50,122 nt of DNA from Candidatus Kaiserbacteria bacterium. GTDB lineage: Bacteria; Patescibacteriota; Minisyncoccia; Phycocordibacterales; UBA2100. The first letter of the stretch is position 1. Each line of letters opens with the position of its first letter. A model generated the notes under the pieces. It was not told the origin of the DNA and did not search any database. It saw only the letters and a list, made by a program, of their open reading frames with translations. Positions 11,839 to 44,258 of the stretch are shown in pieces. Where the stretch lies: positions 1 to 50,122 of the forward strand of contig PLSR01000019.1 in NCBI GenBank assembly GCA_003164215.1, written 5' to 3'. Position numbers and translations under genes: made by a program.

Positions 11839-11938
11839 AGGAACGAAGGCATTGCGTCTTCTGTCCATTTACATCGACTAAGCGTCGATGTACTGGGGCT
11901 TACTAAATTCATCTTTGATGAATTTAGTAAGCCCTTTT
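11839..11938 (+). ncRNA. Candidate small RNA between argS and rplK
   Basis: Promoter upstream; hairpin ACATCGAC-TAAGC-GTCGATGT; terminator GGGCTTACTAAATTCATC-TTT-GATGAATTTAGTAAGCCC-TTTT; no plausible ORF. Confidence 0.55.
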
Positions 11939-12849: not shown

Positions 12850-12897
12850 TGAGAATAAACAAAGGTCGGTCCTTTGTACGAAACAAAGAACCGACCT
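12850..12897 (-). terminator. Rho-independent terminator downstream of nusG
   Basis: Minus strand ACAAAGGTCGGTTCTTTGT-TTCGT-ACAAAGGACCGACCTTTGT-TTATTCT. Confidence 0.75.
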
Positions 12898-12917
12898 TTG
12901 TACGATTTATTTTAAAT

Positions 12918-15619: not shown

Positions 15620-16312
15620 ATGGAAATAAAAAACAAGATCGCGATCGTGACGGGCGCATCCTCCGGCATCGGTCGTGCGCTCTCACATGAGCTTACCAAG
15701 CGCGGCGCGACCGTCGTACTTGCGGCGCGCTCCAGCGATACACTTTCCGCGCTCTCGGCGGAACTGCCGGGATCATTTGCGGTACCGACCGATATGACGA
15801 AGCTTGCCGATATACAGAATCTCATCGCACAAACGCAAAAGAAATTCGGACGCGTCGATCTTCTCGTCAATAACGCAGGGCAAGGCATGCGATCGGCCGT
15901 CGAGGACATCAAGATGGACGATTATCGGGCGATCATGGAGCTCAATGTCTTTGGCATCGTCGAGGCGATGCAGGCTGTCATACCGACGATGCGCGCACAA
16001 GGCAGCGGCATGATATTGAACATCAGCTCAATGGTATCGAAGAATTACTATCCCCTGCTTGCCGCGTATTCATCCACCAAATTCGCCCTGAATTCCATTT
16101 CGCTCACCGCGCGCCAGGAGCTCGCCGACGACAAAATAATCGTGAGCGTCTTCCATCCCAAAATGACCGCGACCGATTTCGGCAAGAACTCGCGCGGAGA
16201 AAAATACTCATCGTCGGCCGGTCGCCCCGGCATGACGGTTGATACTCCTGAAGAAGTCGCGCTACATATCGCGGATCAAATCGAGTCCGAAGACGCGGAG
16301 GCGAATATGTAA
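15620..16312 (+). CDS. SDR-family oxidoreductase
   Basis: IAIVTGASSGIGRALSHELTKRGA; NNAGQG; YSSTKFAL. Confidence 0.95.
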   Translation: MEIKNKIAIVTGASSGIGRALSHELTKRGATVVLAARSSDTLSALSAELPGSFAVPTDMTKLADIQNLIAQTQKKFGRVDLLVNNAGQGMRSAVEDIKMDDYRAIMELNVFGIVEAMQAVIPTMRAQGSGMILNISSMVSKNYYPLLAAYSSTKFALNSISLTARQELADDKIIVSVFHPKMTATDFGKNSRGEKYSSSAGRPGMTVDTPEEVALHIADQIESEDAEANM

Positions 16313-16330: not shown

Positions 16331-16447
16331 GGCGTATCCCATAGGTATGTGTTCGACGGGGTCTTTGCAGCGCGACTGGCGCGAAACAGAGGGATTTTCC
16401 AGTAGGAAAATCCCGACCCCGACGAATACATACCTATGGGATACGCC
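16331..16447. repeat. Long inverted-repeat element with two internal hairpins (three-way-junction type)
   Basis: Arms 16332-16363 and 16415-16446 match with 2 mismatches; internal GCGC-GACTG-GCGC and GGGATTTTCC-AGTA-GGAAAATCCC. Confidence 0.9.
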
Positions 16448-16508: not shown

Positions 16509-16832
16509 ATGGTTGAACATTGTTCGCCACTCGATTCGATATTTAGTTCGCTCGCTGATCCGACGCGCCGCGACATTCTGCGACGCGTGAGTCGTCACGA
16601 GCTCTCCATCAATGAGGTCGCCGCTCCCTACGACCTCACGCTCGCCGCGATCTCCAAGCACCTGATGGTGCTGGAACACGCGAAACTCATCAGTAAGCGT
16701 CGCGCCGGCAAGCAACACTTCATAGCGATCTCCCCGCCCGCCTTCAAGCAGGCTTCACAATTCTTACGCCATTATCAGGAAGTGTGGGAAGAGCGTTTGG
16801 ATCGTTTACAAGATCTTTTAGCAAAAAAATAA
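16509..16832 (+). CDS. ArsR-family regulator
   Basis: LDSIFSSLADPTRRDILRRVSRHELSINEVAAPYDLTLAAISKHLMVLEHAKLIS. Confidence 0.92.
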   Translation: MVEHCSPLDSIFSSLADPTRRDILRRVSRHELSINEVAAPYDLTLAAISKHLMVLEHAKLISKRRAGKQHFIAISPPAFKQASQFLRHYQEVWEERLDRLQDLLAKK

Positions 16833-28107: not shown

Positions 28108-28131
28108 ATCTATGATTTGTATCATAAACAA

Positions 28132-28254
28132 CACATTTTGGTCAGGCGTATTTTTCTGCTGAAAAATCGCCGCGAAGTCTCCCGGCACGAATCTCTATTT
28201 GCCGGCTCGCCTCGTCAGGCTCCGGCTCACAAAATGTGCCCCGCACATTTTGTG
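28132..28254. repeat. tRNA-Val 3'-associated multi-hairpin element
   Basis: CACATTTTG arm 28132-28140; AT hairpin 28150-28167; GC hairpin 28201-28226; CACAAAATGTGC-CCC-GCACATTTTGTG 28228-28254. Confidence 0.8.
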
Positions 28255-28325
28255 CATCCTGTAGGACTCGAACCTACGACCTTCCCCGTGTAAAGGGGTT
28301 GCTCTACCAACTGAGCTAAGGATGC
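28253..28325 (-). tRNA. tRNA-Val (TAC)
   Basis: Acceptor GCATCCT/AGGATGC; anticodon loop TTTACAC. Confidence 0.93.
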
Positions 28326-28337
28326 ATTTATTCAACT

Positions 28338-28475
28338 CACAAATCGTGCCTCGCACATTTGGTCACGGATATTTTCCTGCTGGAAAATTCCGCGAAGTCT
28401 CCCGACATGAATTTCTATTCACCTGGCTCGGCCCGTCGGCCTGCGCCCCACAAATCGTGCCCCGCACGATTTGTG
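28338..28475. repeat. tRNA-Arg 3'-associated multi-hairpin element
   Basis: CACAAATCGTGC-CTC-GCACATTTG; AT hairpin 28371-28388; GGCC-CGTC-GGCC 28430-28441; CACAAATCGTGC-CCC-GCACGATTTGTG 28449-28475. Confidence 0.8.
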
Positions 28476-31982: not shown

Positions 31983-32008
31983 TGATGCCAGTATATCCTA
32001 CAAATGAG

Positions 32009-32124
32009 TACATATCCCCGCAGGCTATAATTTGGGGTATTTCGAGTGCGTCGGCACGAGAACGAAGGGAGTTTTCTAGCAAGAAAACGACCGACCCAAA
32101 ATTATAGCCTGCGGGGATATGTGC
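32009..32124. repeat. Long inverted-repeat element with two internal hairpins
   Basis: Perfect 24-bp arms 32010-32033 and 32098-32121; internal GTGC-GTCG-GCAC (32046-32057) and GTTTTCT-AGCA-AGAAAAC (32071-32088). Confidence 0.92.
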
Positions 32125-32200
32125 TTACCAATGACAAACCCTGCTCCGGGGTCTGGAGCAGGGTAGTCACACTATACTACATCCGGGTAAAAAAAATATT

Positions 32201-44056: not shown

Positions 44057-44174
44057 GTCGCAATCATGGCGCCTAATGGCTTCATCTGCAATGGCATTTT
44101 GGGGGGTTTGTGGAAAAGAAATTAAAAGCAGGACTTCCACTTCCGATTTTGAAGACAACTCATGGTCACAGATA

Positions 44175-44258
44175 ATTTTCTACTGAAAATTTCGCCGGCC
44201 CCGGCTCGCACCGACGTGCTCCGCCGAGCACAAAACTGCGCTTACTCGTTTTGTGCTC
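44175..44258. repeat. tRNA-Arg(GCG) 3'-associated multi-hairpin element
   Basis: ATTTTC-TACT-GAAAAT 44175-44190; GTGCTC-CGCC-GAGCAC 44216-44231; GAGCACAAAA...TTTTGTGCTC 44226-44258. Confidence 0.8.

Follow-up and report, generated by a model that had tools for sequence, protein, structure and literature searches.

An apparently RNA-forming family of folded elements in Patescibacteria with a conserved junction and a drifting outer stem

The stretch of DNA analysed here, called the window below, comprises 50,122 nucleotides of a Candidatus Kaiserbacteria contig. It harbors an element of 117 bases at 16331-16447, with an SDR gene (adh_short, 15620-16312) on one side and, on the other, an ArsR-type gene (16509-16832), which is followed by AHSA1-type genes. 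A repeat search recovered the ends of this element as an inverted repeat with arms of 33 nt (16331-16363 and 16415-16447; 94% complementary, two mismatches) around a spacer of 51 nt. Folded as RNA, it is predicted to form a three-way junction of an outer stem (P1), a GC hairpin (P2; GCGC-GACTG-GCGC, 16370-16382) and an AT-rich hairpin (P3), with a minimum free energy of -87.6 kcal/mol compared with -41.7 +/- 3.8 kcal/mol for shuffled sequences (z = -11.96). Small ORFs crossing the element have no Pfam match. Arms with two mismatches, a small GC hairpin, an AT hairpin with an AGTA loop and a non-coding location between the SDR and ArsR genes had all been part of the original prediction and are present. 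It had also noted a likeness to an element at 32.0 kb and to hairpins beside tRNA genes, and TTTTCYAGYARGAAAA, with at most two mismatches, indeed matches six times in the window where 0.1 matches are expected. The element at 32007-32125 has the same fold (z = -11.8). The features are given below, where the E-values of the covariance models made in this analysis, including model R1, are rough.

16331..16447, plus strand: entire element, with plus as the core (folded) strand; covariance-model match of 106 bits
16331..16363, plus strand: left arm of P1, with junction-side GGGGTC (inverted-repeat search)
16364..16390, plus strand: P2 arm TTTGCA-GCGC-GACTG-GCGC-GAAACAGA (fold and covariation)
16391..16414, plus strand: AT-rich P3 hairpin GGGATTTTCC-AGTA-GGAAAATCCC (fold and covariation)
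16415..16447, plus strand: right arm of P1 (inverted-repeat search)
28132..28233, minus strand: variant directly 3' of tRNA-Val, in sense direction (P2/P3 features)
28345..28455, minus strand: variant with P2, an extra stem and P3 directly 3' of tRNA-Arg(tct), in sense direction (R1 model only E 0.52)
32007..32125, plus strand: second copy with other arms, the same P2/P3 plan and an AGCA loop (model match 60.7 bits, E 2.6e-13)
44164..44225, minus strand: P2 and P3 module with AGTA loop 3' of tRNA-Arg(gcg), in sense direction (inspection)

Two perfect or near-perfect simple hairpins of 18-19 bp and of other sequence (11896-11934 and 12859-12901) are also found in the window and are probably ordinary terminators.

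A DNA search detected related cores on other contigs of the same genome, each within its own long inverted repeat, and in 13 of the 52 genomes of the genus. The covariance model R1, built from 18 sequences, extended this to 47 of the 52 genomes of this Kaiserbacteria-type genus, with about 12 copies in the own genome (E <= 0.01). At E <= 1e-7 it matched 43 of the 52, compared with none of 18 genomes from five other genera of the family, which served as negative control. In addition, the exact P2-P3 pattern was found in at least 118 stretches of the genome collection. The lineages named among the matches listed belong to the Patescibacteria (Kaiser-, Nomura-, Taylor-, Wildermuth-, Yonath-, Zambryski-, Niyogi-, Adler-, Moran- and Uhrbacteria); the sole other name among them, Ruminococcus, is without the P2 hairpin. 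The pattern-found loci given to R1, all outside its building set, were matched by this model at a rough E of about 2e-6 or better. A second covariance model was positive in 14 of 287 genomes of the phylum, mostly of the own order and with 1-11 copies each; many of the compared sequences come from metagenome-assembled genomes. The structure-based search proposed in the original prediction thus returned many homologs, and the element is neither unique nor a bidirectional terminator without relatives, the two outcomes named there as counting against it. No covariance model of Rfam 15 matched the element (only tRNAs exceeded the gathering score, with weak matches far below threshold), viral contigs held no match to the exact P2-P3 pattern, and the literature searched contained no description of such an element family. 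The window element represents a previously undescribed family of folded elements, apparently RNA-forming, in Patescibacteria, a large and mostly uncultured group in which RNA regulation is little explored. Most of this family would be missed by sequence-based repeat or RNA searches.

Within the family, the core keeps sequence features: P2 follows the pattern GCGC-GACNG-GCGC and frequently contains tandem G.A pairs, and P3 is an AT-rich stem with a C-AGYA-G loop. For P1 (median 28 bp), pairing is kept and sequence is not. In an alignment of 109 distinct sequences, standard pairs filled 92% of the pair cells and 42 of 43 pairs had changed on both sides. The covariation score was 0.773, compared with 0.196 for shuffled and at most 0.16 for slid controls, both drawn from the same rows of the structure-fitted alignment; 77 members from across the Patescibacteria, likewise fitted to the structure and controlled, gave the same result. 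Covariation is therefore present in all helices, as is asked of a structured RNA. When core similarity was grouped by genome or by locus, the difference was not significant.

Comparison of flanks identified 17 gene borders that are occupied by an element in two to five species and have homologous neighbours on either side. Same-border pairs agree in orientation in 41 cases and are inverted in two, and flank identity at shared borders has a median of 73%. Identity over the 20 junction-side arm nucleotides is 0.33 for same-border copies, compared with a background of 0.32 for unrelated copies, and pairing amounts to 0.90 with an element's own arms and to 0.35 with arms swapped between same-position partners. 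Covariation, the wide alignment and this comparison agree with the earlier proposal that geometry and loops are conserved and arm sequence is not. The best explanation for the shared borders is vertical inheritance with compensatory drift; insertion of elements there several times, each time in the same direction, is a less likely alternative. Identity between species of the genus is only about 70%, so that empty sites are not alignable at base level in intergenic DNA. A shape that is kept while the sequence of its stem is fully replaced lends itself to tests of selection on structure alone. The border neighbours include KhpA (five species), RNase III and 3-dehydroquinate synthase, and further SecA and methionine aminopeptidase, the latter two named by eye from sequence. 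In three species (L171, L179 and L209), the element follows the RNase III gene by 4-10 nt, and the product of this gene could cut the element's long duplex. One border (L033 and L100) carries the element in opposite orientations in two species, which may reflect an inversion between the arms or a separate insertion.

Mismatches in P1, all scored alike, were counted on the core strand. G.T exceeded A.C by 179 to 47, and 88 elements favoured G.T and 17 A.C, the counts being taken over related elements and thus not fully independent. The excess occurs in every class of neighbouring genes ('<E<' 60:22, '>E>' 30:6, '>E<' 30:2 and '<E>' 25:9), so one strand folds whatever the direction of the neighbours, most likely as RNA. 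Equal numbers are predicted by a cruciform or by strand-symmetric repair, whereas an excess is predicted by folded RNA or by folded single-stranded DNA, and the bias could also come from the latter. Correction of the arms purely at the DNA level was discarded, since it leaves the G.T excess unexplained.

A sister form of the element is linked to tRNA genes. Three tRNA genes of the window are directly followed on their 3' side by a structured trailer with P2 and P3 in sense direction (28115-28475 and 44164-44225, minus strand), built from the same P2 and P3 plus one further stem, or with P3 lengthened. The 170 nt after each of the genes for tRNA-His, -Leu, -Ser and -Lys in the window contain no P2-P3 module. 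In other genomes of the genus, the variant stands beside Val, Ser, Cys, Lys and Arg tRNAs, and at about half of the related loci examined a sense variant is located directly 3' of tRNAs. The P2 and P3 features common to both suggest homology of the stand-alone and the tRNA-linked form, the R1 score being weak (rough E 0.52). Judged from its position, the tRNA-linked form is very likely to be transcribed. This speaks for RNA in the family as a whole, and the tRNA-linked form in particular suggests a role in RNA 3'-end biology that is concrete and open to testing.

Where a neighbouring gene has its 3' end at the element, the gap is small (median 3-11 nt); gene 5' ends are mostly located farther away (median 18-48 nt by class). 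TATA is over-represented 11-20 nt upstream of the P1 5' end (19 compared with about 5.6 expected), which fits either a promoter of the element or one of the neighbouring gene. The neighbouring genes run against the core strand more often than with it ('<E<' 58, '>E>' 28), so that many members would depend on a promoter of their own or on a divergent one. The T-runs after either element end do not exceed background, and this lack of a U-tract counts against the reading favoured next.

Tentatively, and with confidence that stays short of even, we favour a new structured RNA at the edges of transcription units, with a core read via P2 and P3 and a P1 duplex of defined length, that has been mobilised in some lineages. 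The plus (core) strand would fold, most likely as RNA, into the three-way junction of P1, P2 and P3. P1 would be a long outer duplex of fairly constant length and free sequence in which pairing is all that matters, and it might for instance serve in processing or protection. The GC hairpin P2 with its GACNG-type loop and the AT hairpin P3 with its AGYA loop would probably be read by a protein. Positioned just after stop codons at the edges of transcription units, or just 3' of tRNAs in the sister form, the element may, on the core strand, form 3' boundaries, take part in processing or block read-through, and it would have gained mobility in some lineages. A more far-reaching version, which we rate as rather unlikely, is a Patescibacteria-specific, protein-read RNA class with a conserved junction head and a drifting stem, occurring as tRNA 3' trailers and as stand-alone border copies, that gave rise to a mobile element with ends defined by structure and by a constant stem length instead of by terminal sequence.

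The main rival, somewhat unlikely in our judgement, is a purely mobile, non-autonomous element similar to REP or MITE sequences, the conserved positions of which would be old insertions inherited vertically. Here, an enzyme would recognise the folded single DNA strand at the P2/P3 junction, measure about 31-33 nt along the stem and make an 8-bp staggered cut. Flanking direct repeats of at least 8 bp occur at 12% of the genus copies compared with 0.3% of controls, all of them in two species (G046 and G038). By inspection of these copies, duplication and core lie a set distance apart (32/33 nt in G046, 30-31/32 nt in G038) and the terminal bases vary; nine copies of G038 share an identical 34-nt core and have different yet pairing arms. 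From the fixed distance together with varied termini and arms it follows that the mobile unit includes the arms, is of near-constant length and lacks conserved ends, and the young copies therefore pose the question how an enzyme finds such an element. Multiple copies in intergenic positions likewise suit mobility, and the strand bias is obtainable from single-strand folding. As the target duplications of recent copies show, part of the family is simply mobile, a point against the RNA reading. On the other hand, no autonomous partner with the same ends was found among the arm matches of the genome with 12 copies, and the tRNA-linked form lies in the transcribed sense orientation. At the 17 shared borders pairing is intact and the arms are fully drifted, which argues for continuing selection in place. 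The element is a short non-coding unit with terminal inverted repeats, as is typical of MITEs, but arms and termini differ between copies rather than being common to them and a partner IS. The MITE-like nature originally suggested, with its expected target duplications, holds only for the young copies of two species, which have duplications of 8 bp; most copies have none, no convincing one surrounds 16331-16447, and many are fixed at gene borders.

Two other views of the ends were rejected. Arms made from the locus at insertion do not fit young copies of one species that share arms and have their duplications outside them. A direct repeat GCGAG/CGAGCG at many ends, considered as a target duplication, is really a self-complementary GCGAGC/GCGAGC with tandem G.A pairs. 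In the flanks of L040-L055, the target duplications of young copies often have TNTC as their last bases, with CACA following, and there may be an insertion preference for TATC-CACA-like sites. Many left-arm-only fragments, some including P2 and truncated at varying points, were observed in G046 (L088-L098; about nine left-arm versus two right-arm fragments).

The bacterial MITEs ERIC, Correia/NEMIS, RUP and QMITE are intergenic, multicopy sequences of about 100-200 bp with long inverted repeats and stable stem-loop transcripts; young copies carry target duplications (direct repeats of 7-9 bp in QMITE2), and ERIC and NEMIS act on mRNA via RNase E or RNase III (PMC2229807, PMC10969869). The family resembles them in size, intergenic site, long inverted repeats, copy number and duplications of young copies. 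In contrast to these MITEs, which keep their terminal inverted repeats, its arms and ends drift and only pairing persists, many copies hold gene position and orientation between species, and a tRNA-linked sister form exists.

An intrinsic, possibly bidirectional, transcription terminator is improbable. Such a terminator would share the location immediately behind stop codons and close to promoters, the conservation of this position and the freely drifting stem. However, neither end is followed by T-runs beyond background, P1 with about 28 bp is far longer than the stem of an intrinsic terminator, the conserved loops of the branched P2/P3 core are unneeded for termination, and the wobble pairs favour one strand even against the direction of the neighbouring gene.

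REP/RAYT palindromes are dispersed near gene 3' ends and fold as single strands with a preferred strand. These properties recur in the present element, and Y1-family (RAYT-like) proteins occur in 44 of the 52 genus genomes, with as many as 15 in a single genome, an unusually high number for genomes of this small size. Nevertheless, a REP-type substrate of these Y1/RAYT transposases is highly improbable. Copy numbers of elements and Y1 proteins are uncorrelated (Spearman -0.03); 10 elements occur in a genome devoid of Y1 matches, and a genome with 15 Y1 proteins lacks the element. Moreover, no clustering near RAYT genes was seen among the matches listed, the three-way junction is larger than a REP palindrome, and the 8-bp duplications of young copies are at odds with Y1 transposition. 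A cruciform-forming double-stranded DNA element, also part of the original prediction and in keeping with the long near-perfect inverted repeat, is the least credible, as both strands would then fold and G.T should equal A.C, which the ratio of 179:47 contradicts.

In integron attC sites, too, structure is kept over sequence and one folded strand matters. The conserved core boxes of attC are located at the outer ends, and attC sites go together with an integrase and gene cassettes; here no conserved ends were seen, the arrangement appears reversed, with an internal conserved part and free ends, and the sites do not seem to border gene cassettes.

Some members deviate from the common plan. Large, species-specific nested hairpins lie inside P2 or P3 of L134 (142024-142182 of contig C14), L033, L057 and L058. 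In three genomes, elements form head-to-head pairs, with their 5' ends facing each other at a distance of 8-57 nt (G039:C13:37784-37995, G308:C4:55010-55239 and L202:1214-1471).
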